Below, piece after piece: positions 26,096 through 46,394 of a stretch of DNA of 64,000 bases. Location of the stretch: assembly GCF_900102215.1 (NCBI RefSeq), contig NZ_FNBG01000017.1, positions 1 through 64,000 of the forward strand, written 5' to 3'. Within the stretch, counting starts at the first letter, position 1. Every line of letters begins with the position of its first letter. This DNA is from Fontibacillus panacisegetis. Its GTDB lineage: Bacteria; Bacillota; Bacilli; Paenibacillales; Paenibacillaceae. A program made the position numbers and the translations under genes. Below the pieces are notes generated by a model. The model was not told where the DNA came from, made no database searches, and was given only the letters and a program-made list of their open reading frames with translations.

Positions 26096-26722
26096 TTATA
26101 ACTCGGACTCACTATTATCTTTATAGTTGTTACTAAACACGCAATATCTGTTTTTGCCCAGTCTCTTGGCGTGGTACATCGCAGCATCAGCTTCCTTGAA
26201 CATTTTTGTCCGGTCGACCCTAGCACCTTGACTCATGCTAATCCCTATACTTCCAGTGACGGATATATCTCTACCTTGAATGTAATACGGTCTACTAATA
26301 TTATCTAGAATGAGTCCTGCAAGTATTTCTACTTTGTTGGCATCAAAATTTTTCATGATGAACAAAAATTCATCACCACCCATTCGATAAGCAAGCTGAT
26401 TTTTATTAGTTACTTGTTTCAAATGCTTGCTAATCTCTCGTAATAATTGGTCCCCAGCCTGATGTCCGTAAGTATCGTTAACTTCTTTAAACTGATCCAA
26501 ATCCAGACTCAACAAGGCCAGATTTTCTTTCTTCTTATAAGTGGACCAGAAAAAATCCAAGCCATGACGATTCAGCAGTCCAGTTACCGGATCGCGATAG
26601 GCAAGTTCATACAGCTTTGCTCTTTCAGAACGCAGCTTTCTAATATAGAAAGCTCCAATAATCAATACTGTAATTATGATTCCCCAAAACAGGTACATAT
26701 AAATTGGATTTGTAAACGTCAT
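26096..26722 (-). CDS. Membrane-bound diguanylate cyclase (GGDEF)
   Basis: One N-terminal helix (YMYLFWGIIITVLIIGAFYI) is followed directly by a GGDEF domain from about residue 40. The active-site loop reads MGGDEFLF, the substrate region is LLSLDLDQFKEVNDTYGHQAG, and all look intact, so it should make c-di-GMP from two GTP. An inhibitory RxxD site is not obvious. I prefer the ATG at 26722 with GGTGAT before it; an upstream TTG at 26740 is possible. It is the last gene of the long minus-strand surface locus, 46 bp after the hybrid kinase, and could feed the PilZ glycosyltransferase and the c-di-GMP riboswitch nearby. Confidence 0.9.
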   Translation of the reverse strand: MTFTNPIYMYLFWGIIITVLIIGAFYIRKLRSERAKLYELAYRDPVTGLLNRHGLDFFWSTYKKKENLALLSLDLDQFKEVNDTYGHQAGDQLLREISKHLKQVTNKNQLAYRMGGDEFLFIMKNFDANKVEILAGLILDNISRPYYIQGRDISVTGSIGISMSQGARVDRTKMFKEADAAMYHAKRLGKNRYCVFSNNYKDNSESEL

Positions 26723-26768
26723 TTGCTTATCACCAACCAAATTTCATACTATTGTTGTTATATTATCA

Positions 26769-29700
26769 TCAGGTCATTTTTGGAATCCTAAAAGATACCG
26801 ACGTACCTTCACCAGAACGACTTACTATCTTTAACCCTTGTCCAAAAATTTGATTAAGTCTTCGATCGGTATTTTTAAGTCCGATTCCTTTGGTATGGTA
26901 AGTATGATCGTCAAGCAATTTATCCAGCTTTTCCTTACTCATCCCGATACCGTTGTCTTGTATAATAACATCTATATGCTTCGGTTCATCTTTGAAAGTA
27001 ATCTTTACCGTTCCTCCGCTAGAGCGTGGAAGAATACCGTGACTAACTGCATTTTCTACTATGGTCTGTATAGATAGAGGAGGCAGCCATATCGAAATAT
27101 TGTCAGGTATTTCCCACTCCACAACCAGTCTGTCACCAAACCGCTCTTGTTCAATATATAAGTATGATCGCAGTAAATCAAGCTCATGTTCCAAAGGAAC
27201 CAGACGTTGCAAATTCTTCTCACTAATGCTTATTCGCAAATAGTTTCCAAACTCTTCAAGTAATCGGAGCATTCGAGTTGGATCACTATCACTTAGCGAG
27301 GCGATAGAATTCAGTGTATTGAACAGAAAATGTGGTTGAATTTGTGCGTGAAGCCATGCAGCCTCCATAAGCATTCGTTCTCGAACAGATTGTTTGAGAT
27401 TAATCAAAGCATGCACTCTTGATTTGAATTCAACATAGCTGATGGGCTTCATAACATAATCATTAGCCCCCGCTATAAAGCCAGCGTAAACATCCTCTGG
27501 ACGGGTTCTCGCAGTAACAAGCAGAACGGGAAGCTCAGAGATCGTGAACTTGGAGCGTATTTTTTTTGCAAGCTCAAATCCAGAAACATTTGGCATCATA
27601 ACGTCAGAAATGACAAGATCCCATTCCCCATCCTCCAGCTTCTTTAAAGCATCCTCAGCCTTCGTTACTGTAGTCAAATTAAAGCGCTCAGATGGCAGCA
27701 TATTGCTAATCACCTTCAAATTAATGGGATCATCATCAACTGCAATTACTCTAGGTCTATTCTCTTGTGCAATCTCACAACGATACCACGCCTCATCCTC
27801 ATCGTTTAATGAAGAATCCCACATAGGATTATCATTACTGGTTTGAGAAATAGCGGGCTCAAAGCTGGAATTACCTTGATCTAACATTAATGAATTTATC
27901 TCATTATGCTCCAAAGCCAAAGTAAACGTAAAAGTAGAGCCCTGATAGACCTTAGTCTGTACTTCGAGCCTTCCACCATGGAGTTCAACAAGCTGTTTGC
28001 AAATACTCAAGCCAAGTCCTAATCCACTAATAGAACCCGTTAACCCGACATCTCCTTGCTCGTAAGGTTGAAAAATGCGTTGAACCGTCTCTTCATCCAT
28101 ACCAACCCCGCTATCCTTAACATGAACAAATGCTATACCTTGCTTGATCTCGGCATCCAGCACAATTTCGCCTTCGTGGGTATATTTAATAGCATTATGA
28201 ATTAAATTGAACAGAATTTGAATCAAACGATTTTCGTCTGCCATCACGCGAGGAAATGAAGCTGGTACATTCATTACAAGCTCAACCTGCTTGCCCTCTG
28301 TCAAATAGCGAAGCATGTCCAATACACCAGTTGCAACCGCTTGTAGACTCAAGCCTTGCTTATTTAACCTGATCGCTTTTTCTTTTAATAGAGTAACATC
28401 AATCAGATCATTTAATAGCAGCGACATTCTCTGTCCTACGGTAATAATTAATTTCAAATCCTTTTTCTGCTGAGACTCCAGCCTATCCTTTGATTCATCC
28501 AATACATTTTGAGCAATATTGATCATCCCATGCAGAGGATTTCTTAATTCATGCGACGTATTTGCGAGAAAATCATCTTTTACTTTATCAGCCTGTGTAA
28601 GTTTGGTCGTAAGCGTTTGGGCTCGGTAAGTCACTTTAAAAAACTTTAAAATCCAATAGGAAGCTAAACAGATTAATGAAATAATTAGATCAAACGGATA
28701 ATATGGCATGTCAAACCAGAACGAGGTTTTAATAATACCGCCAATGGTGAAATTCATCGAAAGTGCGAAACCAGACAAAAAAATTAAAAAAGCTCCATCT
28801 TTGCCTTGAACAATTCCTCGTAGCGCAAATAAAGGAACATACAGAATAGGGACCAGCACAACAAACAGTAAAAAATATCTTAAATATATAAAGGCATCCA
28901 AAGAACAAACTGCAATCACTACACAATAAATGCTGCAGATTATCGCAAATAGTCTATCTTTTTTACTTTTGGCTGTTTCGAACATTGCTTTATAGCAAAG
29001 TGTTAAAAAAAAGCAAACTCCCACATAAGCAATGATCATGATCTTGGATGACCACTCAAAATCTATAGGAATCCATGTGAACAGAAGTTTATCATCATCA
29101 CTTAATACACAAACGATCGTGCAAATAAAAGCAGCTGCAAAATAAATAATCTCGATTTGACGAAAGCCTAGTATGTAAATTACACATGAGTATATTAAGT
29201 GAAGTAATATAATGAAACACACCAAAAGCTGCATCGACTCTGACAAATATTTCTCTTTCATCACTGCAGAAGTCGTACCAAACTTAATAGAATTAGTAAA
29301 TCCGCCCGCTTCTGAAGCCTGAAAATTAGACACATGAAGCATGATGTCTATTTCTTTCGAATTTGTATGAAAAGCAGCAGTATAAGGTATACTTGCTGCT
29401 TTATTGAGCTCTTTTGTTTCAGTTGGATGGCCCATTTCATGCAGTAATTCCCCATTTATATACAATCTGAACGAGGTATTAATATTTTTAATGCGTATAC
29501 CATACAATATTGAACTATCCTTAACTAACACTTTTAAACGATAAGTTCCATATCCGTATGGAGAGTCCATGACGTTCTTATCATTGTGCCAAGACCCAGG
29601 AACCTTTACGAAAGAATTATGAGACAAGGCCGCTTCTGTCTTATCCTCATTCGGATCAATAAAAATGCCGGGATAGAACTCCCAATCTCCATTCAATGAA

Positions 29701-29891
29701 ATAGTACGTTTGTCGTCCAATCTCCATTTCTGAAGATCCATAACTCCTTGCGTAACCTTAGGCTGGCCTAGCTCTACTCTATAGCTGATCCATATTAAGC
29801 GGAAGCATAAAAGCAACAGCACAAACAGCACAAAATACAGCAGCATTTTCTTTTTTGACATTGTCTTAACTGGGGGTTTAAGTAAGTTCAT
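26769..29891 (-). CDS. 7TM-DISM hybrid sensor with two different histidine kinase cores
   Basis: Order along 1040 residues: one helix (18-37), an outer jelly-roll sensor of the DISM/glycoside-binding type (NGDWEFYPG, YRLKVLVKD), seven helices (about 215-420), a HisKA domain with SHELRNPLHGM near 446, its ATPase domain (NLIHNAIKYT, GLGLGLSICKQL), a receiver with DVMMPNVSGFE near 764, and then a second, LytS-type kinase with QIQPHFLFNTLNS near 852 and its own ATPase domain (VENAVSHGI, DNGIGMSKE). Both cores look active. Its ATG lies one base after the sortase stop codon, so translation is probably coupled. A partner may be the response regulator at 43127-44269. Confidence 0.92.
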   Translation of the reverse strand: MNLLKPPVKTMSKKKMLLYFVLFVLLLLCFRLIWISYRVELGQPKVTQGVMDLQKWRLDDKRTISLNGDWEFYPGIFIDPNEDKTEAALSHNSFVKVPGSWHNDKNVMDSPYGYGTYRLKVLVKDSSILYGIRIKNINTSFRLYINGELLHEMGHPTETKELNKAASIPYTAAFHTNSKEIDIMLHVSNFQASEAGGFTNSIKFGTTSAVMKEKYLSESMQLLVCFIILLHLIYSCVIYILGFRQIEIIYFAAAFICTIVCVLSDDDKLLFTWIPIDFEWSSKIMIIAYVGVCFFLTLCYKAMFETAKSKKDRLFAIICSIYCVVIAVCSLDAFIYLRYFLLFVVLVPILYVPLFALRGIVQGKDGAFLIFLSGFALSMNFTIGGIIKTSFWFDMPYYPFDLIISLICLASYWILKFFKVTYRAQTLTTKLTQADKVKDDFLANTSHELRNPLHGMINIAQNVLDESKDRLESQQKKDLKLIITVGQRMSLLLNDLIDVTLLKEKAIRLNKQGLSLQAVATGVLDMLRYLTEGKQVELVMNVPASFPRVMADENRLIQILFNLIHNAIKYTHEGEIVLDAEIKQGIAFVHVKDSGVGMDEETVQRIFQPYEQGDVGLTGSISGLGLGLSICKQLVELHGGRLEVQTKVYQGSTFTFTLALEHNEINSLMLDQGNSSFEPAISQTSNDNPMWDSSLNDEDEAWYRCEIAQENRPRVIAVDDDPINLKVISNMLPSERFNLTTVTKAEDALKKLEDGEWDLVISDVMMPNVSGFELAKKIRSKFTISELPVLLVTARTRPEDVYAGFIAGANDYVMKPISYVEFKSRVHALINLKQSVRERMLMEAAWLHAQIQPHFLFNTLNSIASLSDSDPTRMLRLLEEFGNYLRISISEKNLQRLVPLEHELDLLRSYLYIEQERFGDRLVVEWEIPDNISIWLPPLSIQTIVENAVSHGILPRSSGGTVKITFKDEPKHIDVIIQDNGIGMSKEKLDKLLDDHTYHTKGIGLKNTDRRLNQIFGQGLKIVSRSGEGTSVSFRIPKMT

Positions 29892-29892
29892 T

Positions 29893-30561
29893 TCATTCCT
29901 CTAATTCTGCTTGTACAATCAGACGGTGAGTAGACTTGTTTAACGGAGTACAAGTAATTAAAGTAAGCCACTTATCATTATTGTTGCTGTTCAATACTGA
30001 AATGTCCGTTGGTTCTACAACCGATATTTTAATCACCTTATAGGTGTATTTTTCGCGTTTAGTAGTTATTTTGACCAAATCTCCTAGTTCTACTTCATCC
30101 AGCCGATTAAATAAACGACCTTCTTTTCGAGCTCTGTGCGCTGCTATTGCCGCGTTACCTACCTCACCTAAAGGCGTTGTATCAGACATATGTGTAGCTG
30201 CATGCCGCATGTTCTCTTTTGTCGCTCCTTCAAGCACAGGGAGCTTCAAATCAATCTTATCTATTTCAATAACTGCTATCGGTGTCTCGCCGTTAACCTC
30301 TTCTAATGGTTCAATAGCGACCGATTCCTCTTCTTCACCCTGATCGAGCAATGTAGAAACTTGCGCATAGCTCCTCTGTATATCGGTATTAGATCTTACA
30401 GATTCCTGTGTCAGCTCCAACTGTTCGGCATCCTCTAACAATTGATTCTGTTCGTAATCCGCTTTCCATTCCAGAAGTTTGGGAGTCAACATAATCAGTA
30501 ACCCTAGTAAAATTAAAATGTACGGAATCTTGTTACGCACTATGCCACTCCCTCTCTTCAT
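29893..30561 (-). CDS. Sortase, probably class D type
   Basis: A membrane helix near the N-terminus (IPYILILLGLLIMLTPKLL) is followed by a linker and the sortase barrel. The catalytic triad is present: histidine in IAAHRARKEG near 141, cysteine in TLITCTP near 204, arginine in THRLIVQA near 213. It should join LPxTG-type proteins to the wall on the outside. I place the start at ATG 30561, which overlaps the stop of the GH18-like gene as TAATG; the frame extends further upstream without a ribosome site. It sits between GH18 and kinase genes, and an LPKTG adhesin is encoded 8 kb upstream. The class assignment is tentative. Confidence 0.85.
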   Translation of the reverse strand: MKRGSGIVRNKIPYILILLGLLIMLTPKLLEWKADYEQNQLLEDAEQLELTQESVRSNTDIQRSYAQVSTLLDQGEEEESVAIEPLEEVNGETPIAVIEIDKIDLKLPVLEGATKENMRHAATHMSDTTPLGEVGNAAIAAHRARKEGRLFNRLDEVELGDLVKITTKREKYTYKVIKISVVEPTDISVLNSNNNDKWLTLITCTPLNKSTHRLIVQAELEE

Positions 30562-31634
30562 TAAGGACTCAAAGTCTGTAAAGTACCTTCGCCAATCTCG
30601 CCTAATCTCCAAAGCGCAATGTTATAAATTCCTGCTTTCGCCGCGACATTCATCCATTGCGTCAACGTCTCGTTATCTGCATACCATACAGTATGCTGAG
30701 TTCCGTTTTCATCCTTATATTTGTAATATAAGGACCCGCTTTTTTTATCGCGAGCCGGAATTGAGAGAGTAGACTGTACAAGCATGGAAGCCTGCTTTTC
30801 TGTTAATGCCTTTACTTCACCGTTAGCAGACCAGTCAAATCCACCTAAGGACAAGGCGATCATGTGATTGCCAGGGAGCTTTTTCATCTTTTTCGCTAAA
30901 TCAGTAATCAATGCATTGTCCGCTTTAGGTCCAGGACCACTATGTGTTCCATACAGATTGTAAGCCATCATGACATATACAGGACCCTTCGGTAAAGGGA
31001 GAGATCCCACTTTCGCCTTTGGTTCAAGCACGATTCTTAAGGTTTTTCCCGAGGCATGCAATCGTTGGTACAATTCCTTATAGAAAAGGCACACATTTTT
31101 CCAATCTTTATCAGAAATCTGTTCATAGTCGATCTCCAAGCCGCCAAAACCGTAATTATTGACCGTTTCCACCAGTTCATCAATATGCTGTGTCCGACTT
31201 GTTTTCGAAGATACCAGCCTAGTTACAAGATTGGGATCTTTCTGAACCACTTTACCTTGACTATCAAAACGATCATTAACCACAGTTAGCGTTACGTCGG
31301 CCAGCCCGTTATTTCCAGTAGTAACCAGAATCTGAGGCATGCCTTCAATCATTTTTTCGGTAAAATACAACTTATCCTGATCGTTAAAATAAGCCGCAAA
31401 CAACTGCAAACTATCTATATGGTCGCCCAGCTGCTGCAAGTCCTCTAACCCCGATTCCCATTGCCAATCCGTTATCCAAGCTGATAATTTCGGCTCAGGT
31501 GTCTTTGTCATAGGCATATCCTTCATATATATATTGTCTTTCTTCACAATAGATATCAAAATAGCACCTAAAATAACAAGACTTAGTACAGCTGCGACTG
31601 CGATCCCGTTTCGTGTTCGCCTTTTTCTTGGCAC
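30561..31634 (-). CDS. GH18-like membrane-anchored glycosidase
   Basis: An N-terminal helix (AVAAVLSLVILGAILISIV) anchors an outer TIM barrel of the GH18 type. The active-site strand reads FGGLEIDYEQ near residue 168: the last aspartate and the catalytic glutamate fit D-x-x-D-x-D-x-E, but the first aspartate is glycine and the second is glutamate. YVMMAYNLYG near 225 and the end LWRLGEIGEG fit SleL/YaaH-type proteins. It may cut or trim the polymer made by the nearby synthase. The start is a GTG nine bases after AAGGGA. Activity is likely but altered catalysis is possible. Confidence 0.8.
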   Translation of the reverse strand: MPRKRRTRNGIAVAAVLSLVILGAILISIVKKDNIYMKDMPMTKTPEPKLSAWITDWQWESGLEDLQQLGDHIDSLQLFAAYFNDQDKLYFTEKMIEGMPQILVTTGNNGLADVTLTVVNDRFDSQGKVVQKDPNLVTRLVSSKTSRTQHIDELVETVNNYGFGGLEIDYEQISDKDWKNVCLFYKELYQRLHASGKTLRIVLEPKAKVGSLPLPKGPVYVMMAYNLYGTHSGPGPKADNALITDLAKKMKKLPGNHMIALSLGGFDWSANGEVKALTEKQASMLVQSTLSIPARDKKSGSLYYKYKDENGTQHTVWYADNETLTQWMNVAAKAGIYNIALWRLGEIGEGTLQTLSP

Positions 31635-31659
31635 TGCGTACAGTCCCTTCTATCCATGA

Positions 31660-33429
31660 TTAGAACGTATCCATCGTCCAGTTTACAGCAGTATTCACAG
31701 CCTTTTTCACACGACTGACCACACCTTCAATCCCTGAAAGCTTCAGGCTGTACTTAAAGGATGAATCGTCACTTTCATTTCCAGGTGACGTAACCTGTAG
31801 ATCCTCAAATACCCCATCATAAATATCATCTTTTTCGTTCTGTTCATTATATTTAGCTTCAAGAGCGATTCCACCGATTGATATAGAAGGATCAACCTGC
31901 AGATTCTCAACCAGCAGCTGATCGTCAACAATGATTTTCAAGGATTGTCCCACAAGCTCAACTTCGAAATTTCTCGAATTGCGAATGTTAACAGGGTAAT
32001 CATGCTTATCACTCGTGACGCCTGATGCTGTCTGTTCCTTCGTGTAGACGGAAGCCTTGTCAAATGCCAAATCTTCTTCCTTCCATTGTAGCTCATCTAA
32101 TGGCTGACTGAATACTGGCTTATCCGTTGATCCTGGCTTTTGTTCCTCTACAATAATATTGTTATTTTCTAAGTAGACGTGCAGTGATGTTTTCTTAACT
32201 TTATCATATCGTAAGTAAACGCCCTGTTTACCTATAACATTACCGGAAGCTTTAAATGACACCTTGACATCGCGCTGATCGCTGCTTCCATTAAGATACA
32301 TTTTACCTGATCCTGCAGGCGGTGATGTTAATATGATCATATTCTCGTCAAACTCGGCTACACCGCCAAGCATATTCCATTTCCCGGCTTCATCTTCATC
32401 TCCACGAACAAATTGCATCGTATTCCCGGTATCCTTTCTTATTTTCATAAGAAGGTGATTGGTAGACCAGTAGGAAGCGGGTTGGATTCTGGTCAGGTCA
32501 TAAATATCATCATCCTTGCTGTTTAGAGTCTGACCCTCCCGATTAAAATGCATCTGGAACATGTTGTGAATATTACTCGAATTCGCATTCAGCACAAGGG
32601 GATTCATTCCTTCTCCTAGTGCATTGGAGTGCATTATCATATAAACCGATGGAACATATCCCAAAGTATCTGTATATATATCCTGCATCAATTTATAGTC
32701 ACCCTGAATACGTGCTTCCATTTCATCACGATCCTCAATCGGAATCATGTTCTCATCACGAATAAAATCCATTAGATAGTGGTTGTAATACTCAATGTTT
32801 TCTTTGTCCGTCAGCTCGTTCTCATCCTTGACCCCAATATAACGCCCTTCTTTATCGAAGACATTAATGTAGGTTAGACGATACCCATTCGTTCCGAGCT
32901 CCCAGTACCCGGTCTTGGCCATCTTCAACATGTCTTTCGGCTGCAAAAATTTTCTGTCGCTGTTCCCCATTTTATTCGCGTAAGACAAAAAAGTTGCTTT
33001 ATAATTATATTTTTCTAGCAAGGGCTGCGCAAACAAACTGGAATCATTGCGACCATCTTCAAAAGATAAAAATAATGCTTTTGGCGGCAACGGCTTTCCC
33101 TTCGTATAAAAATCAGTAATATCTTGTTGAGAGATCGTACGATATCCTTGATCATACAATGCCCCCAGTTGTTCATCCAACTGATTCTTGGCAACGAGCT
33201 TTGAGCTCGCACTGCGCCCTACTCCAAAATATGAGATTGCAATAAAGCCCTGATCCTCCTGCATCCATGCAGTCTTGTCCGGCTCCTCGTATCTCTGCAC
33301 ATCAAAAACCGCATCAATTAACAAGGCGATCAGCGCGAGCAAAATGACGGTTTGGATAATAGTTTTGATTACTTTATTAATATTTTTCTTCCGCACATTC
33401 AAGGCAGAATTTGTTTGCTTTTTTACCAT
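31660..33429 (-). CDS. Membrane-anchored polysaccharide-deacetylase-like protein
   Basis: After one membrane helix (VIKTIIQTVILLALIALLI), residues 65-350 resemble a NodB-type deacetylase: LFLSFEDGRNDSS replaces the usual TFDD, and TGYWELGTNGYRL lies where an HxxxH metal site is expected, but the histidines are absent. Residues 350-560 are beta-rich and may bind sugar (GGIALEAKYN). The enzyme may be inactive or use another mechanism. PgaB-type partners of exopolysaccharide synthases pair deacetylase and hydrolase domains; here the GH18-like partner is encoded next door. I prefer ATG 33429, with GTGAGG nine bases before it, over upstream starts overlapping the glycosyltransferase stop. Confidence 0.7.
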   Translation of the reverse strand: MVKKQTNSALNVRKKNINKVIKTIIQTVILLALIALLIDAVFDVQRYEEPDKTAWMQEDQGFIAISYFGVGRSASSKLVAKNQLDEQLGALYDQGYRTISQQDITDFYTKGKPLPPKALFLSFEDGRNDSSLFAQPLLEKYNYKATFLSYANKMGNSDRKFLQPKDMLKMAKTGYWELGTNGYRLTYINVFDKEGRYIGVKDENELTDKENIEYYNHYLMDFIRDENMIPIEDRDEMEARIQGDYKLMQDIYTDTLGYVPSVYMIMHSNALGEGMNPLVLNANSSNIHNMFQMHFNREGQTLNSKDDDIYDLTRIQPASYWSTNHLLMKIRKDTGNTMQFVRGDEDEAGKWNMLGGVAEFDENMIILTSPPAGSGKMYLNGSSDQRDVKVSFKASGNVIGKQGVYLRYDKVKKTSLHVYLENNNIIVEEQKPGSTDKPVFSQPLDELQWKEEDLAFDKASVYTKEQTASGVTSDKHDYPVNIRNSRNFEVELVGQSLKIIVDDQLLVENLQVDPSISIGGIALEAKYNEQNEKDDIYDGVFEDLQVTSPGNESDDSSFKYSLKLSGIEGVVSRVKKAVNTAVNWTMDTF

Positions 33430-33443
33430 TTCTGCCATCCTCA

Positions 33444-35333
33444 CTATATCGAATTCGTTCGATTTTTATTTCGTTGTTGCTTTCTGGCTTCCTTCTTCAG
33501 TCTTGCCTCAATATCCTGCGGCGTTTCTCTAGTACCCCATGTAGACTTCCAGAAGGTAACCCATGCTACTGGCATTTGCCACAACAATACAAACTCATAG
33601 AAAATACAGAAGACAAAACCAAATACCCACAGCTTACTTTTGCGGAAGAGCAAATGTGCCAGACTCATGAGCAGCGCCATCAACAAAAGTCCCATGAGAA
33701 AAGTACCTGGAAAAACACCATAAACTAACGGAACAAAAACGAGATTATACAACACGACAACGGGTGCTGCGATCGGTACAATGAGACCAATGTAGAAAAA
33801 CAACGCCATAAACGGCTCTTTTTTCCAAATAAATCCTGCCGCTCGAAGTGATTCTCTTAGCCATGAGCGTTTCCAACGCATCTGCTGTTTTAAGAACACT
33901 TTGTTATCCGAAGGAACAATCGTTGAACAGATCGCCGAATCTTGATATCCGGTACGATGCGTCTTAAGGATAAAGTTCGTCATACTCCGATCATCACCAA
34001 AGGTAGCAGGCTGACCAAGGAATTTCTGGTTCAACCAAGCATCTTTATGTTTAAGAATCAAATCTTTGCGGTAACAAGATAACGGACCAGAGAGACAACT
34101 TACACTATCGAACCAAGACTCTGCAGCCTTCATAATACGAAATGCAATATAATATCGCACAGTCTGAAGTTTCGTCAATGAATTGGTATATTTGTTCTCT
34201 ACATCGGTACGACCAGCAACACCGCCCATTTTAGGATCTTGGAAAGGTTGTACGAGATGCCGGATTGCATCCGGCTCAAGGAAGCTGTCTGAATCGACGA
34301 ATACGACCAAATCATGACGGGCTACTTCTACCCCTTTGACCAAAGCTTCGCGTTTTCCTGCATTTTGCTGCTGAACAATAACCTTGAGCCGATCTCTAGT
34401 GTTATAACGCTCCGCTTCATTATGAATGGTCTCAATCATTCGCTCAATCTGTTCGACAGAACGGTCAGTTGATCGGTCATCTACAACGATAACTTCAAGC
34501 TTATCAACCGGATAATCCTGATTCATGCAGCTTAAAATGGTTCGGTGAATCCATTGCTCCTCATTAAAACAAGGGATAACTATAGATACACCTGGAGTAT
34601 AATCCGGATTCACAGGAACATCCCTGAACAATGCTCCGAATAAATATCGGGTCAACAGAAACAAGGCTGCAATCAGACTATACAGATACAAAACAATATT
34701 GTACTTAAAATAAATAATGCTCTCGATACGCATGAGCATGATAAAAAGCACTGAGAATAACAAGAACGTACTTGCTGCATACACAGAATAACCCCAGCGT
34801 TTCTTCTGAAAATACTCCGTTAACGGCTTAACAAACTCTACGGCGATCATTAGTTGTTCTTTGTGATCGCCTTCCTCAGTCTCATGTTGCTGCATAAACA
34901 AACGGACAACAGTTGCATCAGTCTGCACCAATGATTCGAAACCTTCCGGCATTGTGCCCGGTGGAATGCGAAATTTCACCTTTATTTTATTACCGACAGT
35001 CAATTCAGGAGATGGCTCGTTAACAACAACCAATAGCCCAGTAGACGAAATATCCGCTGCCTTGCCCTTTATCCCATTTTTTTTGGTGCGTCCTTCAGGG
35101 ATAATATGCACATCAAAATCGGCAACGTATCTGAGACTAAGCATTCTCATTTTGTTGAGGTATTCGGCATCCAATGTGGCCGAATCCTGCTCAGATCCCC
35201 GAATACCTCTTCGGTCTGCAACGTGACGAATTTGTTCCGGATCAGGTACATATGACAGCGTCCGCCGATCTGGTCGCGTAACGGTCAGTTTCTCCTCAGT
35301 AACTTTTTTATTTTTTTTTCTGAACACGATCAA
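33444..35333 (-). CDS. Processive family-2 glycosyltransferase with N-terminal PilZ domain
   Basis: Residues 60-165 form a PilZ domain with the DISSTGLLV turn (D-x-S-x-x-G) and an arginine pair upstream (RRGIR near 42 and RMLSLR near 63), so c-di-GMP binding is possible but spacing is unusual. Two helices (183-235) lead into a cytoplasmic GT-A domain with VVDDRS near 284, VDSDSF near 344, the GDDR acceptor motif near 445, and QQMRW (Q-x-x-R-W) near 483, followed by four or five helices. This is the layout of cellulose, hyaluronan and PNAG synthases. It should build and export a beta-linked polymer, with c-di-GMP as activator. Start is TTG 35333 or GTG 35327. Confidence 0.9.
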   Translation of the reverse strand: MIVFRKKNKKVTEEKLTVTRPDRRTLSYVPDPEQIRHVADRRGIRGSEQDSATLDAEYLNKMRMLSLRYVADFDVHIIPEGRTKKNGIKGKAADISSTGLLVVVNEPSPELTVGNKIKVKFRIPPGTMPEGFESLVQTDATVVRLFMQQHETEEGDHKEQLMIAVEFVKPLTEYFQKKRWGYSVYAASTFLLFSVLFIMLMRIESIIYFKYNIVLYLYSLIAALFLLTRYLFGALFRDVPVNPDYTPGVSIVIPCFNEEQWIHRTILSCMNQDYPVDKLEVIVVDDRSTDRSVEQIERMIETIHNEAERYNTRDRLKVIVQQQNAGKREALVKGVEVARHDLVVFVDSDSFLEPDAIRHLVQPFQDPKMGGVAGRTDVENKYTNSLTKLQTVRYYIAFRIMKAAESWFDSVSCLSGPLSCYRKDLILKHKDAWLNQKFLGQPATFGDDRSMTNFILKTHRTGYQDSAICSTIVPSDNKVFLKQQMRWKRSWLRESLRAAGFIWKKEPFMALFFYIGLIVPIAAPVVVLYNLVFVPLVYGVFPGTFLMGLLLMALLMSLAHLLFRKSKLWVFGFVFCIFYEFVLLWQMPVAWVTFWKSTWGTRETPQDIEARLKKEARKQQRNKNRTNSI

Positions 35334-35349
35334 ATCCCCAATCCTTTAA

Positions 35350-36663: not shown

Positions 36664-36683
36664 ATCTATTCATCCCCGTTTTT

Positions 36684-38138: not shown

Positions 38139-38287
38139 TACTTAACTCCTTCAACTAGTATAGGAAAAAAGCCTTGATTTTCTCAAAATCTACTATAACA
38201 TACCATTTTTATAATTTAAATTCTAGACAATTGTACTAAGTTGTTCTTAACAATTTCTAAACAAGAAATTTGTAATCGCTTTAATTG

Positions 38288-38328
38288 AAAAAAGCGTTCT
38301 CCAAGACCAATAAAGTCTTAAAGAACGC
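38288..38328 (-). terminator. Terminator after the adhesin gene
   Basis: On the minus strand GGCGTTCTTTAAGAC pairs with GTCTTGGAGAACGC, followed by TTTTTTC. It separates the adhesin from the downstream polymer operon, which must have its own promoter between 38139 and 38290. Confidence 0.85.
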
Positions 38329-38345
38329 CTGAAATACAGATTAAA

Positions 38346-41300
38346 CTACTTTTTGTTGATTAGAAATTTTCTTCTCAACATGACTGCTCCAGCTACGATT
38401 AGCACAGCTCCAACTACTTGCACAAGCCAAGGGCTATTTTCCCCAGTTTTTGGAAGAACAGGTACATTAGTACCATCTTGCTTAGCCTTGTCTCCTTTAG
38501 AACCGCCTAATGGATTACCGTTCTCATCCAATTCAATATCAGATGGATTAGAAGTTTTTCCTGGTTTAGTCTTGTCTCCATTGGTTCCGTCTGACGGAAC
38601 CGGCTCTTCCGGAGCAGTATACTCTTCATCCTTCTCAACCGGTTTTGTCGGAGTTGGTACTTCTTCCTTTGGAGTCACTGGATTTGTTGGTGTTCCTGGA
38701 TTTGTTGGTGTTCCTGGGTTACCTGGGTTACCTGGGTTACCTGGGTTACCTGGGTTACCTGAATTATCTGGGTTACCTGGATCAACCCTTTTGGAATTTG
38801 TTACTGTAATACCCAAAACTCCTCCGGTCAACTCAACTCCAGAATCAATAGTAATGGTTTGATTCGGACTGTCTATTGTATATCCTCGTGGTGCAGCTGT
38901 CTCTGTCAAAACATACTCACCATACAGCAGGTCTGTAAACACTGCTTTACCGTCTGCATCTGTAACCACTGAAATTGGAGCTCTCAAGTTGCCTTTGTCT
39001 TGCAGAACAAAAGTAGCTCCTTCCAGCGTCTTGGATACATTGGCTTTATCAACTTTGGTTATTTCAAGTTGACCTTTAGGTGTTACAGGAGTAGTAGATT
39101 TTTCATTTACTGCCGTAACTTTCTTGACACCGCTCGTTTGCTTGATAGAGCTATCAATTACGATAGAAGTTCCAGTTTGATCAAGGTCATATCCTTGCGG
39201 AGCTTCCGTTTCAATTAACGTATAAGTACCATATAGCAATTTCGTAAAGGTAATCACACCATTAGGATCCGTCACCTTTTCCCCTATAAGGGTACCGCTA
39301 CTATTAATTAATTTAAACTTAGCACCTTCAAGCTTGTTACTATGATCATCTTTATCAACCTTAGTAATTTCAAGGTTACCAAGTACGCCTGTACCAGTAC
39401 CCGATCCTATAGTCGATTGAACTCGTACAATTTTTTCATGCTCTAATGTACCCTTCGTAATTCCATTACCTTCAAATTCAACTCTATTTGTTACATTCTC
39501 ATCATCTGTAGTCACAGCGATCTTTGAAGAATATTCCAAAATATAAGCTTCTTCAATAGGATTTAAGAAGGTCAGTTCAAACATCTCTTTATCCGTTTGA
39601 GGATCAGTAGTAAGTACTAGGCTGTAATCAACATCCTTCGTTTGCAAAGCATCCTTTGTTAGAACCAATACATTTTGGTTCCCTGAATTAGATGCCTTAG
39701 CTAGATAAAGCTTAAAGGAACTAGTATCGAGGATCTGATTCGTGCTCGGATAGTCGATGATCTTCGCACCTTCAACGTAGGATTGACCTTCATTGATCTT
39801 GATCGTCCAATCGATATTTGAACCATTCTTTGTACCCGCTTTGTCAACGTAAAATTCACCACGCGGGATAGTTAATGACTTATTCCAGCTCCAGCTATCA
39901 TCAGTATTGCCTGTCAAAGTCGCTTCGTTGTTTACTTTGTCTACAACTACTGTTTTGTCAAGCTTTGTAACAAAGGTAACTATATGCGGTACAGTAATAT
40001 TACCTAAATCAATCGAAAGTGTGTTATTAACATAAGTAATTTTACTAGGATCGATAGTGACTGGACTACCTTTAATTACTGCTCCTGATGAGTTAACAGA
40101 TGCTTCATACACTTCGACTGTAACCGGTACTAATGTCTGATGATCCTTCAGTTCATCAGTAAATACAGCATTGTTTACTGTATTACCATTGTAATTGGCT
40201 ACAATCTCCCAAGTAATCTCTTTCTTGCTAGCGTCGTATTTACCATCTTTACGACCGTTGTTCTTAGTTTCATTATTAGGATTGAAATCTTTCGTCAGGT
40301 TAATGTTGCCACTATACTCTGTCTTTTTCTCATCCCAAACAATGTTAGCGGTATTTCTATAACCCGCACTCTCTGGAATGAAGTTGGTTTTATAAGTAAT
40401 AGTATACGTATCTGTGAACTGTCCTTGGAATTCTATCTTAAGTCCTTTTGTCAGATCACTTTGGTCAACAGTATACGGTATTACTGTTCCAGATGAGCTA
40501 GTTATTGTGTAGGAATCTTTAATCAATTTCAGACCACTGCCACTAAATGTGTCAGTTACAATCAAGTTAGTCATTGGTTTTTTGTCGCTATTGACTACAA
40601 TTTCCCAAGTATTGGTCTTTGTACTATAGTCAACAGACGTATCACGTTTTACACCAATGTTGCTGTAGAAGTAGCTTGTTGCCGTCCTATCGATTCGATT
40701 CCCACTATAAGTGGTATATACATCATTAGTAACTGTTGTATTTTGGTAAATTCGGTTGTCCGTGTAGGTCTTATATTCAATATCGTATTTGGTATCCGCA
40801 GGAATCGCTGCATTAAAAATCAGATCGTATCCACTTTTACCATCTACTCCATTAATATAATTTACCGTGTAATCTTGACCATCAGTTAGTGTTGTTCTAC
40901 TACCCTGATCGGTTACTTTATAGACTACAAAGCTGTTCGGAACAATCTTCATGTTGTCATTAAACCGATCGTGAACTACAGCTTCTGCTTGAGTAATTTC
41001 TTTCCCAGCATAATTGTATTTCACTTTCCAAGCAATGTTCTGATTAGTTCGATCGCTACCTGAAGCCGCGCCTTCTTTTGTTAAAAGCTCTTCACGAACA
41101 ATATTGATGGTTTTCTTGTCAGTCTGAGTTGTAATATTTGATCCCGTCAATTTAGCATCGTTTGTGAAGCTGTTCATGGCTTCGTTATCAGTAACTGCTG
41201 TAGAATACTGAATTCGGTATGCTTTAGACAGCGTCGTCTCCTTGAACAGAATCTCAAACCCTAGTCCATCAGGCTGAAAATTTACTGTATAGACATTATC

Positions 41301-42062: not shown

Positions 42063-42177
42063 AATTTGTTTTCTTTCACCCTCTTCCAATAAGTTTTAGA
42101 CCATCAAATAATGGTTCTCCGAACATTTGCTAGACCAAAATTCACCAAAAACAACAAGAATAGATTATTCTATCTGA

Positions 42178-42618
42178 CTATACAAATTCTCTACAAGCTG
42201 AAGACTGCTCATGAAGTGTGTAGAAAGCATAGAACTTTTTCTTCTTCACAGCGTTGGATAACCAGGCAAAAAAATCATTAACCCGGTCATCCTCCCATTT
42301 TCCTCCCTCACGATAAAGCAAGCGGTAATAGGAAATTTTATATTTTATAGTACCGTTCCATGAAAAATAAAATATATTTTTATCACGATATTGTTGAATG
42401 TAACAATCAAAATTACTGTTCTGCAGCGGGAATAAATTATCGTTATAAAAAAATAGCGGTCCATTGACCGTCGCAATTATTCCAATCTTATTCTCTTGAT
42501 AATCTATATAAAAACCTCTGCAGTACTGTTGCTTATGTTCTTTGCTCAGTTCAATTTCCTCATACGTGCTCACATCAATTCCTTTGGATAAATCACCGAA
42601 GTTTCTGAGTATAATCAT
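42178..42618 (-). CDS. Hypothetical protein, about 146 residues
   Basis: No family is recognised. The product is soluble and rich in aromatic residues and lysine, without a signal peptide. The frame is open from a TTG at 42690, but the ATG at 42618 is the first with any upstream purine site (AGGTG, too close; GGGGGA, somewhat far), so translation may be weak. It lies between repeat copy C and the adhesin gene on the same strand, and might be co-transcribed with the adhesin across an 88-bp gap. Confidence 0.45.
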   Translation of the reverse strand: MIILRNFGDLSKGIDVSTYEEIELSKEHKQQYCRGFYIDYQENKIGIIATVNGPLFFYNDNLFPLQNSNFDCYIQQYRDKNIFYFSWNGTIKYKISYYRLLYREGGKWEDDRVNDFFAWLSNAVKKKKFYAFYTLHEQSSACREFV

Positions 42619-42704
42619 GACACCTGAAATCCCCCATTCTTCACAATCTAACTTAAATATAATCAGAACACCTATACAATTTCTGTACAATTGTTCTCAA
42701 CTGA

Positions 42705-43107: not shown

Positions 43108-43126
43108 CCTGTTAATCCTGGTTTTA

Positions 43127-44269
43127 TTAATTTTGCATAGTAGTTTTCTTCGCCCAAAGCTCATACCACTCGCTTATGTGATTGCTTGGAGAAACACTTA
43201 CTTCTTCTTGTAATGAATTCAAAAGTAAATTGAACTGTCTTTCAACCATTGAATGACGATCCATACTTGCGTACATTTTCATTAGTGAAAAATGTGCCTC
43301 TTCCTCAAGCGGGTATTGATTGCAAATATTAACATAACATATGATCGCTTGATCAATAAGCTGCTGTTGTTGATACCAATCCGCAATGGAGTAGGACGTA
43401 AACAACCACATTCCTTTGAGGCGCTGGCGTTCACTTTCAGTCCACCAATAGTCAAACTCCTGCAAGTAATCACCAGTATACAGCTTCATAGTTTCTACAT
43501 ATTCATCTATAAATTCCTCATTAATGCGCGGCAGTTGGGTAAGCTTGTCCTCCCATTCCACTATATCCAGAATGACATTATTCATGTTAAGTATATACCC
43601 TTCAGTCGTATTGGAGATTTGAAATCTTTCACCATAAGGCTGTAAAGTCTTCCGGATATGATAGACCGCTGTATACAATTGAGAGTACACTTTGTCAGAT
43701 TCATATTCAGGCCATAATAGATCAATAAGTACGGATTTACGCACAAGCTGTCCCCGATGCTGCAGCAAAAATAAAAAAAGCTCCTGTGCTTTCGAAGTTC
43801 TCCACTGCAAAAGAGTAAATTGACCCTTAGGCAACTCTACCGAAACTTGCTTTAATAGATGCAGACGAAGATCATGATCCTCTTCAACAGCTTCATCCTC
43901 CACGATCGAATGCTGTAACTTTCGAATCCGATCTACGGTTTTTGTTAGTCGTTCAGCTCTAGTTGGCTTCACGATATAATCAATTGCATTAAGTTCAAAG
44001 GCTTTTATCGCATATTCGTTATATGCTGTTACAAATACGATATTCAACTGAGGTTTGAACCCAAGTAATTGATCAGCAAGTTCAATTCCATTGATTTCAG
44101 GCAAACTTATATCTAAAAAAACAGCATCTACATCCTTGCGAAGTATTTCTTCTCTCGCTACAAGCGGATCAGAGAAAAGACCTACAATCTCAATATTGTC
44201 AAATTTAAGAAGTTGACGCTCTAAGTATTCCAATGCTAACCTCTCGTCATCAACCAGAATGACTTTCAT
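43127..44269 (-). CDS. Response regulator with BTAD (SARP-like) output domain
   Basis: Residues 1-120 are a receiver with DDE near 7-9, the phospho-acceptor in VFLDISLPE near 54 and lysine in DYIVKPTRA near 104. A winged helix (about 140-225, with VRKSVLIDLLWPEYESDKVYSQLYTAVYHIR, shortened here to VRKSVLIDLLWPE) and a helical bacterial transcriptional activation domain (240-375) follow. This output is common in Paenibacillus regulators paired with DISM hybrid kinases. The hybrid kinase of this locus, whose second core is LytS-like, is the natural candidate partner, though 13 kb away. AAGGAG precedes the ATG. Confidence 0.9.
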   Translation of the reverse strand: MKVILVDDERLALEYLERQLLKFDNIEIVGLFSDPLVAREEILRKDVDAVFLDISLPEINGIELADQLLGFKPQLNIVFVTAYNEYAIKAFELNAIDYIVKPTRAERLTKTVDRIRKLQHSIVEDEAVEEDHDLRLHLLKQVSVELPKGQFTLLQWRTSKAQELFLFLLQHRGQLVRKSVLIDLLWPEYESDKVYSQLYTAVYHIRKTLQPYGERFQISNTTEGYILNMNNVILDIVEWEDKLTQLPRINEEFIDEYVETMKLYTGDYLQEFDYWWTESERQRLKGMWLFTSYSIADWYQQQQLIDQAIICYVNICNQYPLEEEAHFSLMKMYASMDRHSMVERQFNLLLNSLQEEVSVSPSNHISEWYELWAKKTTMQN

Positions 44270-44330
44270 TTCGGCACTCCTTTAAATAATTATTATCTAA
44301 TATATCTTATTATATAATCGGCATTACAAT

Positions 44331-44367
44331 AAAAAAAATAAGCCTCGAACTGGTAAAGTTCAAGGCT
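44331..44367 (-). terminator. Terminator after the transglutaminase-like gene
   Basis: AGCCTCGAAC pairs with GTTCAAGGCT (one mismatch) around TGGTAAA. On the minus strand it is followed by TATTTTTTTT. Confidence 0.9.
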
Positions 44368-44385
44368 CACAGACCTAAATCCCTA

Positions 44386-45195
44386 TTAATATTGTCTAGC
44401 AGGTGTGTATTTCGAAGCTTCTTTTATCATTTCAAAAGCAGTTGTAGTACCTTTCCATCCTGAGTCAACCGTTGTATCGATAATCACCCACGAGCCGTTC
44501 AGGTAAACCTCATTCCAAGCATGATAAGTGGTTACATATTCCGTGTTCCCCATGACAAGCTTGGCAGGAATATCGACACTCCGCAGCATAGCTGCAAAAA
44601 GTGCAGAATATCCATAGCAGATATCTTTTTTCGTAATAAATGTACGCTCGATTTGCGGTATATAATCATTTGGTGATTTTACTGCCAGTTGATTATCGTA
44701 TTTGATATTGCTAATTACGAAGTCGTAAATAGCTTTTACTTTTTCAGCATCTGTTGTCTTATTTTGAGTGAGCTCTTTCGCTTTAAGAACTGCTTTGCTG
44801 GAATCGTTCCAGCTTACATTTTGTACAGAATTAAGGAAAACAATTGAGCTGTCTTTAAGATTCAGATTCACAGTTTCCTTATGGACCAATCGATATTTAT
44901 TTCCACTCGTTTGTTCCAGTAGACTTATCGTGTAATCACCATTACCAAGCTGAAGAGAGAATGTATTATCCTCACTGTCAGCTAATAAATTATAGGTATA
45001 TTGCTCTTCGCCCTTCACAACTAACAGCTTTGTCTTCAAATCAGGATTGACTTTATATTGAATGCTAACAGAGCCATTATCAATGTTCCCTAAATCCAAC
45101 CAATCCTTGCTATCCGCCGCATAAGCAGAATTAGCTCCAGTAATCCATGGCAATAGTGTCATGAACGCAATTACAACAATAATAAATCTACGCAC
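44386..45195 (-). CDS. Secreted transglutaminase-like protein under c-di-GMP riboswitch
   Basis: A signal peptide (IIVVIAFMTLLPWITGANS, cut near AYA) precedes a beta-rich region, then a transglutaminase-like core: cysteine in KKDICYGYSALFAAML near 193, histidine in TTYHAWNEVYLNG near 228, aspartate in WVIIDTTVD near 245. Such folds act as cysteine proteases or cross-linkers; which applies is unknown. The start is a GTG (45195), with AAAGGGG eight bases upstream at the 3' edge of a c-di-GMP-I riboswitch. It may modify or cross-link surface proteins when c-di-GMP changes, fitting the neighbouring polymer and adhesin genes. Confidence 0.88.
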   Translation of the reverse strand: MRRFIIVVIAFMTLLPWITGANSAYAADSKDWLDLGNIDNGSVSIQYKVNPDLKTKLLVVKGEEQYTYNLLADSEDNTFSLQLGNGDYTISLLEQTSGNKYRLVHKETVNLNLKDSSIVFLNSVQNVSWNDSSKAVLKAKELTQNKTTDAEKVKAIYDFVISNIKYDNQLAVKSPNDYIPQIERTFITKKDICYGYSALFAAMLRSVDIPAKLVMGNTEYVTTYHAWNEVYLNGSWVIIDTTVDSGWKGTTTAFEMIKEASKYTPARQY

Positions 45196-45203
45196 ATATA
45201 AAA

Positions 45204-45300
45204 CCCCTTTCGGTAACTGGCTACCATCTCTGACTAAGAGGAAGGCCCTTTAGCTTTGCGTCACTGTCTTTCGACAGTTTTGCCATTGTCGTATAAGTTC
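45204..45300 (-). promoter_or_regulatory. Class I cyclic di-GMP riboswitch (GEMM-I)
   Basis: Read on the minus strand this leader contains the GEMM-I core in order: TGGCAAAACTGTCGAAAGAC (P2 with its GAAA tetraloop), GTGACGCAAAGCTAAAGGGC (the conserved ACGCAAAGC and tetraloop-receptor side), then CTCT...AGAG (P3) and ATGGTAGCCAGTTACCGA. The ribosome binding site AAAGGGG directly follows the aptamer, with no terminator-like stem before the GTG start, so control is probably at translation. It senses c-di-GMP and governs the transglutaminase-like gene. Confidence 0.9.
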
Positions 45301-45410
45301 TATGGATGTATATATTTCTTTATTAGATAACAATTGGATGGTTCTTAATTACTAGATTCAGGTTATCATAGATCAAAGTATTTTTAAAGTCTCAATTTTA
45401 GAATAATACA

Positions 45411-46394
45411 TTATTCATTAGATGACTTACCCCTATTTTTTCTTCTTCGAAGCACCCATACGATACCAAAAGCTACACCTGTGATTAATAGGATCGGAAG
45501 AGCTGCAGATAATACAATGACAATCCATTGGAAAAATATACTAATCACATTCATACTTCCACTTAATGCATCCTTAGCTCGTTCGAACAGAGAGGCATTC
45601 GTCTTCTCAGTAAGAATTATGGTATCTGGTTGATATAACCGAATCTCAATGGTTGAGAAGGATACACTATTATCGATAAATCGCATTCTCCCCCGAATTT
45701 GCTCAATTTCAGTCTGAATTCGTTCAAGTTCATTAACGAACTCCACGATCTGATCTGTCTTGGTAGCCTCATTTAAAAACTTCAAATATCTTTCTTCCAT
45801 CGCCAGCTTTACTTTAAGACGCGACTCTAGATCAACGTATTCCTCGGAGACGTCCTGACCTTGAATGCTGCGCTGCATGTCTTCATGATCAAATTTCTCC
45901 AATCGATCCAAAAAGGTGGAAAATCCGCTGGCAGGCACTTTAATTGTAAAATCACCCCCTTTTTCGTTGTGAGAGAAACCTTCGGAGAACTCTACTATAT
46001 ATCCACCTGCTAATGTAACCAAATTACGAATATCGGATTGTGCCTTACCATAGTCTTTGACCTCCATCGTAACGTTGGCTGTATAAATCAGTTTCTTATT
46101 CAGTCCGGCAATACTGTCAGCTGCGCTGAAGCCCGTACTCGTTATGAAATTTCCACCTTTTGATTCAGAGCTTGGTAAAGCTTCAGTTGTATTTGCGGAT
46201 GCACTATCAAACTTAACTTGTTCTGTAGACTCCTCTTTTGCGCTCTCACTTGTACCTGTATCTGACGCAAAATCGCTAGTACTGGAGCTGTTGGCCATAG
46301 GTGCACTATTACTATTGTCTTTCGCGCTTCCACACCCACTCAGTACTAAAAGAAAAATCATGCTTACTACCAGCCAATTCCCCCATTTGTTCAT
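45411..46394 (-). CDS. DUF4349 lipoprotein
   Basis: A lipoprotein signal (VVSMIFLLVLSGCG, lipobox LSGC) is followed by a serine-rich linker, a DUF4349 domain (LIYTANVTMEVKDYGKAQSD near 90, then a long coiled coil including EERYLKFLNEATKTDQIVEF shortened at both ends), and a C-terminal membrane helix (WIVIVLSAALPILLITGVAF) with a basic tail. DUF4349 proteins are membrane-spanning surface proteins of unknown function. ATG 46394 has GGGGG eight bases upstream. It lies upstream of the riboswitch, on the same strand as the transglutaminase-like gene. Confidence 0.85.
   Translation of the reverse strand: MNKWGNWLVVSMIFLLVLSGCGSAKDNSNSAPMANSSSTSDFASDTGTSESAKEESTEQVKFDSASANTTEALPSSESKGGNFITSTGFSAADSIAGLNKKLIYTANVTMEVKDYGKAQSDIRNLVTLAGGYIVEFSEGFSHNEKGGDFTIKVPASGFSTFLDRLEKFDHEDMQRSIQGQDVSEEYVDLESRLKVKLAMEERYLKFLNEATKTDQIVEFVNELERIQTEIEQIRGRMRFIDNSVSFSTIEIRLYQPDTIILTEKTNASLFERAKDALSGSMNVISIFFQWIVIVLSAALPILLITGVAFGIVWVLRRRKNRGKSSNE

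Follow-up and report, generated by a model that had tools for sequence, protein, structure and literature searches.

Organization of the locus

We analyzed a 64-kb stretch of the Fontibacillus panacisegetis genome (GCF_900102215.1, contig NZ_FNBG01000017.1, positions 1 to 64,000; this whole stretch is called the window) for which an earlier note, here the original prediction, had proposed a surface polymer and adhesin system tuned by cyclic di-GMP (c-di-GMP). Using Pfam, NCBIfam and Rfam models, we recovered by family matches every gene that it had named, all of them minus-strand genes within 46418-26096. These include a PilZ-linked processive synthase of glycosyltransferase family 2 (GT2), a UDP-N-acetylhexosamine (HexNAc) 6-dehydrogenase, a GH18-like protein, a sortase, an adhesin with Collagen_bind and SpaA domains that ends in LPKTG, a diguanylate cyclase, a dual-core hybrid kinase, a BTAD regulator, and a c-di-GMP riboswitch ahead of a transglutaminase-like gene, here termed TG (Table 1). 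The most informative relationship had escaped the original prediction: the presence of the riboswitch gene is coupled to that of a motif on the anchor side of the adhesin, and its predicted OFF sign is opposite to that of the switches on adhesin and polymer genes in some relatives, which are predicted to be ON. The best explanation of the locus, and on balance a probable one, is a two-module attachment switch in which TG would release the adhesin when c-di-GMP falls.

The first module is the polysaccharide core, consisting of a deacetylase, the UDP-HexNAc dehydrogenase, the PilZ-GT2 synthase, a PgaB-like protein and the GH18 protein. The second consists of the c-di-GMP-I riboswitch with TG, the LPXTG adhesin and the sortase, often joined by the BTAD regulator, the hybrid kinase and the cyclase; in the window the sortase domain has an LPXTG anchor protein close by, as in a sortase-substrate pair. 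The aptamer was the sole Rfam match over gathering score in the 64 kb, in which no tRNA genes were found, and one of the two PilZ domains encoded genome-wide belongs to the window synthase. Terminator-like hairpins 3′ of TG and 3′ of the adhesin suggest that TG is monocistronic and that the adhesin forms a separate unit (the hairpin scan found 18 such sites, compared with 11.4 in shuffles). From the deacetylase (38138) to the cyclase (26096) the genes lie 1-28 bases apart or overlap, which places the sortase, as originally claimed, and also the kinase and cyclase inside the polymer run; this run is probably co-transcribed. A single fixed 20-kb operon was ruled out by the hairpins and by the separate conservation of the two modules.

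Table 1. Features of the locus, with aptamer stretches of related polymer operons in the last row
Feature	Position	Strand	Remark
c-di-GMP class I riboswitch aptamer, RF03167 c-di-GMP-I-GGC	45208..45293	-	67.5 bits, gathering 59
Extended P1 helix, predicted translational OFF platform	45198..45303	-	ATAGAAC 45303-45297 can pair with GTTTTAT 45204-45198
Shine-Dalgarno AAAGGGG, in or adjoining 3′ strand of extended P1	45210-45204	-	
TG, transglutaminase-fold protein PF01841, signal-peptide-like N-terminus; proposed adhesin-releasing cysteine endopeptidase	44386..45195	-	
Terminator-like hairpin 3′ of TG	44338..44370	-	hairpin scan
Response regulator, winged-helix and BTAD domains	43127..44269	-	
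orf170, small protein recurring in adhesin module	42178..42690	-	Pfam: no match at E 0.01
LPKTG adhesin, 5 Collagen_bind stretches and 2 SpaA	38346..42089	-	
Adhesin pre-anchor motif IELDENGNPLGG, residues about 1185-1196, 15 residues ahead of LPKTG	38502..38537	-	coordinates hand-computed
Terminator-like hairpin separating adhesin and polymer operon	38292..38330	-	hairpin scan
DAC2, tandem polysaccharide deacetylase, lipoprotein-like N-terminus	36684..38138	-	domain 1 degenerate, domain 2 intact
UDP-HexNAc 6-dehydrogenase, TviB-like	35350..36663	-	463 bits, below TviB cut-off 592
PilZ-GT2 processive synthase, NodC/chitin-synthase-like	33444..35333	-	
PgaB-like protein	31660..33444	-	without deacetylase metal histidines
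GH18-like protein	30561..31634	-	catalytic Glu present; E 5.5e-12
Sortase	29893..30612	-	likely start GTG 30540; E 1.4e-35; best class model class C, below cut-off
7TMR-DISM hybrid histidine kinase, two kinase cores	26769..29891	-	HisKA + HATPase_c, receiver, His_kinase
Diguanylate cyclase	26096..26740	-	GGDEF motif intact; E 1.4e-37
Polymer-operon aptamer stretches of G012, G013, G015	L061 3412-3499, L062 15400-15547, L065 3359-3482		

An acidic motif beside the wall anchor tracks TG

Relatives were taken from samples of 40 genomes of the genus and 295 of the family and, for TG, from the best 80 of 543 confirmed relatives (the named TG loci, mostly Paenibacillus, also Fontibacillus, Cohnella, Gorillibacterium and Anaerocolumna). 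LPXTG proteins next to TG share a motif, [VI][ED][IV][DE][DE][ED]x[IVNT]P[LRK]GG, which occurs once to three times in the stretch that separates their last domain from the anchor. In the 47 proteins with scores over 8, the residue after the proline (P+1) is Leu in 21, Arg in 16 and Lys in 7. The motif has no conserved Gln, and the adhesin may hold one elsewhere. It was scored with a matrix of 20 sequence windows from 14 genus proteins, of which three merely fit the selection rule and are not the motif; the threshold was the 99% level of shuffled tails, and the tails of both the training and the test set supplied the background letters. Anchors were recognized for the tests and the tree as LPxTG followed by E, D or S, a pattern that misses anchors such as LPETGQ (L193), while the genome-wide and unlinked-protein scans used a wider LPXTG pattern with a hydrophobicity filter. 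A loose LPXTG pattern was rejected after it took MPPTGG in a housekeeping gene for an anchor, and Pfam PF00746 misses many anchors, since it finds them in only 13 of 39 genus genomes.

Among rows outside the matrix from loci with TG, 30 of 36 carry the motif (23 of 28 clusters), or 30 of 34 if two rows from the polymer locus of genome G007 are excluded, both of which fall below threshold and one of which (361 residues) is not a true LPXTG protein. The sortase-linked LPXTG proteins of TG-less loci carry it in 0 of 29 rows and 0 of 14 clusters at the shuffled 99% level (Fisher test on clusters, 2e-7). In a tree of 66 adhesins computed with the tails left out, the motif passes the matrix threshold in 39 of 42 TG-linked rows versus 0 of 24 others, which include G007's polymer-locus adhesin; five of the 42 come from a second genus, and all of these pass except L309, with a score of 9.0. 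Well supported branches of this tree record five or more changes of the TG label, and the motif follows it in all five independent contrasts.

Individual genomes show the same coupling. G007 holds both states, a TG-linked adhesin with the motif and a polymer-locus adhesin with neither TG nor motif, and the TG-less G017 has a decayed motif, TAQEDDGNPSGG, where its tree sister G032 has IELDDDGNPLGG. G004, G008, G035 and G036, which are TG-less, have kept adhesin, sortase, BTAD regulator, kinase, cyclase and orf170 and show no TG, aptamer or motif there. At 13 of 14 genus loci TG is followed by an adhesin within a few genes; the exception is G024, whose anchored proteins elsewhere in the genome carry the motif (L270: 14.3 and 8.5). 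More broadly, at 52 of 74 named loci a sortase gene or a strictly defined LPXTG gene lies no more than 5 kb from TG. In 20 TG-positive genomes, where TG is mostly unlinked, the motif occurs in 18 of 29 anchored proteins found genome-wide and in 15 of 26 unlinked ones (30 loci were used, one yielding no protein, and further weak rows were left out), which suggests that TG acts in trans.

Fold and proposed activity of TG

The N-terminus of TG, read by eye, resembles a signal peptide, and Cys193, His225 and Asp240 are invariant in 13 of 13 sequences. The structure model of TG (mean pLDDT 78, 13 sequences) best matched Streptococcus pyogenes TglA (9crn; Z 15.2, 139 residues, root mean square deviation 2.4), followed by the putative protease 3kd4 (Z 12.9) and the transglutaminase (TGase) 4xz7 (Z 12.4); LapG aligned with Z 10.9 over 133 residues (root mean square deviation 3.1). 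Sequence profiles matched 4xz7, 3isr (named a putative cysteine protease) and 9crn. A search of open-access literature found no paper on TglA. TG carries a Cys-His-Asp triad of the LapG type on a transglutaminase fold, which sets it apart from the zinc metalloprotease fold of the Pro-Pro endopeptidases (PPEP). At E 0.01 the LapG Pfam family gave no match to TG, the only families matched being Transglut_core (PF01841) and DUF553.

The modeled fold is compatible with both a protease and a transglutaminase. Made at low c-di-GMP, TG could be a genuine transglutaminase (or a ligase) and link the anchor-proximal part of the adhesin to another surface protein or to itself; the Transglut_core assignment, the three top fold relatives and the three profile matches would all accommodate such an enzyme. 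We regard this as unlikely. The motif that tracks TG offers no conserved Gln as acyl donor, which favors peptide cleavage over transglutamination, and Leu is about as frequent at P+1 as Arg and Lys; moreover, a cross-linker whose synthesis is confined to low c-di-GMP would work against the ON switches that are predicted below for adhesin genes of relatives. We infer that TG cleaves rather than cross-links.

A riboswitch predicted to turn TG off and opposite switches in relatives

An aptamer immediately upstream of TG was found at 80 of the 80 best named loci with a model built from 14 genus aptamers (6 of the 80 tested genomes also served in building it) and by pattern scan at 73 of 74 named loci, 54 of the 74 having two aptamers. 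The same model found no aptamer in 34 sortase stretches of TG-less genomes. Additional aptamer matches occur in L184, L199, L201, L208, L219 and L235. The riboswitch of the original prediction was thus recovered with its target, and the association of such switches with TG is not in itself new, since passages of PMC12452182 already list COG1305 among the genes that are enriched behind tandem c-di-GMP-I riboswitches of Bacillota (94% pairs).

The Shine-Dalgarno sequence of TG follows directly after the aptamer, and bases ahead of the aptamer pair with the stretch that holds or flanks it; 13 of 14 genus leaders form this burying pairing. At the 14 genus loci the pairing energy was -9.3 kcal/mol for a leader with itself, -7.6 across species and -4.6 in shuffled sequence (permutation p 5e-5), and at 73 other loci -9.5, -7.5 and -5.1 kcal/mol (p 2e-4), both p values being the floor of the permutations run and uncorrected for kinship. 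Pairing fell below -6 kcal/mol at 67 of these 73 loci, all of which have a Shine-Dalgarno-like sequence. Because the Shine-Dalgarno sequence lies within an extended P1 helix that ligand would stabilize, a translational OFF switch is predicted; that the aptamer binds c-di-GMP and acts in the OFF direction is likewise a reading of the leader sequence. The reverse arrangement, in which ligand frees the Shine-Dalgarno sequence and TG acts together with the adhesin in the attached state, seems to us improbable. Sequence cannot prove the sign of a switch, and the two Vibrio cholerae class I switches respond oppositely, neither via termination, according to passages of PMC6366702. Here the Shine-Dalgarno sequence sits inside or next to a helix that continues P1 and is expected to be stabilized by ligand, and the adhesin and polymer leaders of some relatives have the opposite architecture.

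These leaders include LPXTG genes with a class I aptamer of their own, present at 6 of the 80 named loci (RF01051, 56.6-69.1 bits); in one, L173, the frame next to the aptamer is one of 188 residues that overlaps the LPXTG frame. At L191, L193, L234 and L240 the 5′ arm of a terminator is the aptamer's own 3′ strand, and the fold of L173 shows the same hairpin while that of L186 does not. The polymer operon is preceded by an aptamer with the same terminator type at 3 of 29 loci, those of G012, G013 and G015 (the Rfam check covered only that of G015), and these three cluster together in the adhesin tree. The terminator at the polymer operon competes with the aptamer. ON switches are predicted for the adhesin and polymer leaders, opposite to TG. 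Passages of PMC6366702 describe the same logic in Clostridioides difficile, with adhesins switched ON and a protease that removes them.

The polymer module

Receptors of the PilZ type are recognized by RxxxR and D/NxSxxG motifs. The PilZ domain fused to the window GT2 enzyme scores barely above the cut-off of 22.5 (23.6 bits, E 6.7e-5); DxSxxG is present in 29 of 29 orthologues, while R-x4-R stands in place of RxxxR, with 4 of the 29 lacking its first Arg. Processive GT2 synthases carry DxD, (T/G)ED-like and QxxRW motifs, and the corresponding VDSDS, GDD and QQMRW are present in 29 of 29 synthases. QxxRW is described as a motif of processive GT2 synthases in passages of PMC7112194. The proposed pair of deacetylase-type proteins held at the level of family matches but not of catalytic motifs: among the three deacetylase-type domains only DAC2 domain 2 retains the metal-site, TFDD and RPPTG motifs (29 of 29 orthologues), which suggests a single active domain. 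The PgaB deacetylase of poly-N-acetylglucosamine (PNAG) uses metal-binding histidines. These are missing at the aligned place in 29 of 29 PgaB-like proteins, which argues against a PNAG deacetylase of that kind, and DAC2 domain 1 lacks them in all 29 as well. The catalytic Glu of the GH18 protein is present in 25 of 25. The product is likely a HexNAc polymer that has lost part of its N-acetyl groups and that may or may not contain HexNAc uronic acid; the acidic N-acetylhexosamine polymer first predicted is plausible.

Two separately conserved modules that have joined more than once

Across the family sample (thresholds E 1e-40 for TG, 1e-35 for the sortase and 1e-100 for the synthase) TG occurs in 122 of 295 genomes, two of them with fragments only (G127, G277), the sortase in 156 and the synthase in 50. 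A synthase with at least 73% identity is encoded by 16 of the 40 genus genomes. Deacetylase, synthase and PgaB-like protein stand together at all 16 of these loci, the dehydrogenase at 15 (no frame was called in G032), and GH18 is adjacent in 10 and a few genes off in 3. The sortase, with an adhesin alongside, lies within the polymer run at only 3 of the 16 (window, G007, G032), TG adjoins the run at 2 (window, G032), and kinase and cyclase are at the run in the window and G007. The adhesin module stands without polymer genes in G012, G013, G015 and G016, in the order riboswitch-TG-BTAD-(orf170)-adhesin-sortase, to which a kinase, a cyclase or both are often appended, and precedes the same GH36 and methyl-accepting chemotaxis protein (MCP) genes as in the window; G033 has the module with different flanks. 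These separate modules imply that the polymer core of the window is nested inside the adhesin module, between adhesin and sortase.

TG and synthase are both present in 23 genomes and lie no more than 15 kb apart in eight: that of the window, G032, G167, G180, G243, G251, G267 and G271, the last six from one other genus. The order there is adhesin-riboswitches-TG-sortase (reversed)-polymer core in G180, G243, G251 and G267, and adhesin-sortase-riboswitches-TG-polymer in G167; the contig of G271 starts at the TG leader. Uniform placement would put about 0.1 of the 23 genomes within 15 kb (binomial p 1.8e-13, ignoring kinship); because kinship is ignored, the safer statement is that two differently arranged joinings exist. 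That the two modules are mere chance neighbors without a common function is doubtful in our view. The low genus counts point that way, as do the 27 of 50 synthase genomes without TG and the 99 of 122 TG genomes without synthase, but a second joining in another order and another genus, the eight genomes against 0.1 expected, and the ON-type aptamer on the polymer operon itself in three genomes argue for a link that is real but facultative. A region of polymer and adhesin genes tuned by c-di-GMP therefore stands, while one fixed system does not; likewise, the co-conservation of sortase, synthase and riboswitch proved mixed, being rare within the genus, yet the set of riboswitch, TG, adhesin and sortase is kept and has rejoined the polymer genes in a second genus.

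The sortase is found in 119 of 122 genomes with TG and in 37 of 173 without, a co-occurrence that would also fit the motif being a sortase or wall-export signal and TG a mere clade marker; this is very unlikely, since sortase orthologues without TG pair with motif-less anchored proteins (0 of 29), the tree contrasts follow TG, and L277, L281, L283 and L284 have adhesin, sortase, BTAD regulator, kinase, cyclase and orf170 with no TG, aptamer or motif. At many of the loci L214-L247 (for example L226, L231 and L243) the sortase stands immediately ahead of TG and is itself preceded by a GT2-like gene and by very large membrane proteins; these loci have no LPXTG gene close by and may represent a third arrangement.

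A proposed attachment switch and its closest parallels

The attachment switch that we favor draws on gene content, the aptamer, the pairing over the Shine-Dalgarno sequence, the coupling of motif and TG and the opposite predicted signs in some relatives, all of which are borne out by comparison of the sequences. At high c-di-GMP, for which the module has its own cyclase, the PilZ-GT2 synthase would make an extracellular amino-sugar polymer, the sortase-anchored adhesin would remain on the wall, and the ligand-stabilized P1 would bury the Shine-Dalgarno sequence and leave TG untranslated. When c-di-GMP falls, TG would be translated and secreted, and would free the adhesin by cutting it at the acidic P-[LRK]-G-G site that separates the last adhesin domain from the LPXTG anchor. 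The polymer would be the amino-sugar product deduced above from its enzymes.

Several observations weigh against this proposal. The endopeptidase activity of TG is a prediction from sequence and fold, and the best fold match, TglA, together with human transglutaminases, leaves room for cross-linking. The G028 leader has no extended P1. With five contrasts only, the sign test on the adhesin tree gives p 0.0625, and the motif was originally recognized by visual inspection of tails, among them those of later TG-positive test rows; the tails gathered after the idea were those of the TG-less rows (three loci excepted), the second-genus rows and the genome-wide rows. Of the 29 anchored proteins found genome-wide, 11 are below threshold, several of them showing motif variants. 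The window genome's other LPXTG protein has no motif in its readable part (the tail is partly masked), four unlinked LPXTG proteins of G009 have none, and unlinked LPXTG proteins in G000, G009 and G016 are below the scoring threshold. Neither a sortase nor an LPXTG gene lies within 5 kb of TG at 22 of 74 loci, some at a contig end, and 14 kb around the sortase in 20 TG-positive genomes with unlinked TG hold no LPXTG gene.

The nearest parallel is C. difficile, for which passages of PMC6366702 describe PPEP-1 (ZmpI) and the sortase-dependent adhesins CD630_28310 and CD630_32460. As proposed for TG, PPEP-1 is secreted and frees sortase-dependent adhesins by cleaving them close to the wall anchor; the adhesin genes there are under c-di-GMP ON riboswitches, as predicted here in six relatives, and class I switches are described as OFF (passages of PMC6366702). 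Unlike PPEP-1, a zinc Pro-Pro endopeptidase, TG has a cysteine transglutaminase fold; the OFF platform is predicted to be translational here and is transcriptional there, an acidic PxGG motif takes the place of a proline motif, the adhesin ON switches are class I rather than class II, and in some genomes the module here is linked to a PilZ synthase operon. In C. difficile the leader of zmpI would itself be an OFF switch of class I.

In the Pseudomonas LapG/LapD/LapA system a transglutaminase-fold cysteine protease frees a large adhesin at low c-di-GMP, which passages of PMC3032545 show for LapG and we propose for TG. Unlike in LapG, control here would act on enzyme synthesis through the riboswitch, and the anchor is a Gram-positive wall. 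The cap riboswitch Bc2 of Bacillus thuringiensis, in passages of PMC6366702, is a class I ON switch before a collagen-adhesion gene, resembling the architecture in the relatives, whereas the window riboswitch is on the enzyme. The COG1305 genes of PMC12452182 are the same target, and the passages at hand give no adhesin, sortase, motif, sign or function for them. The polymer module differs from PNAG, alginate and cellulose systems in the N-terminal fusion of PilZ to a NodC-like GT2, in the UDP-HexNAc dehydrogenase and in a PgaB-like protein without metal histidines. It shares with those systems a GT2 synthase with PilZ, deacetylase and glycoside hydrolase parts.

On our best reading this is a real and functionally coherent two-module region in which TG would be a Gram-positive analogue of LapG and PPEP-1. 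No described precedent was found in open-access titles, abstract openings or passages, subscription journals being mostly outside that scope. We see the case as evenly balanced for the wider claim of undescribed transglutaminase-fold endopeptidases under c-di-GMP riboswitches with a dedicated acidic PxGG site, working together with switches of the other sign on the adhesin and the PilZ-synthase operon, which would form a third independent solution to adhesin release beside LapG and PPEP-1, with coevolution of enzyme and site in Paenibacillaceae and Anaerocolumna. An unexplained riboswitch target, the transglutaminase-like genes behind tandem c-di-GMP switches, would become an enzyme-substrate pair with a named site, giving a c-di-GMP logic for Paenibacillus attachment and suggesting at least three evolutionary origins, with unrelated control points, for c-di-GMP-controlled adhesin release. 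If this is true, Paenibacillus-type soil bacteria appear to have their own biofilm-release switch beside those of Pseudomonas and Clostridioides, with one signal governing wall adhesin, polymer synthesis and cutting enzyme.

Other features of the window and of related loci

Between the BTAD gene and orf170 the window has a strong hairpin (42777-42746) and repeated TGCAxATxTGCAG-like stretches (43030-42840). Upstream of the riboswitch lies a gene for a DUF4349 protein (46418-45411), which also adjoins genes of the region in G007, G011, G017, G022, G030, G031 and G032. A 16S rRNA gene follows a few hundred bases past TG in L186, L188, L191, L193 and L223 (from about 11095-11348); many other named TG loci end at a contig edge at a similar distance, probably for this reason. 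Positions 59271-60863 of the window, outside the locus studied, encode another GGDEF-type protein, part of which, as read by eye, resembles an extracellular sensor.

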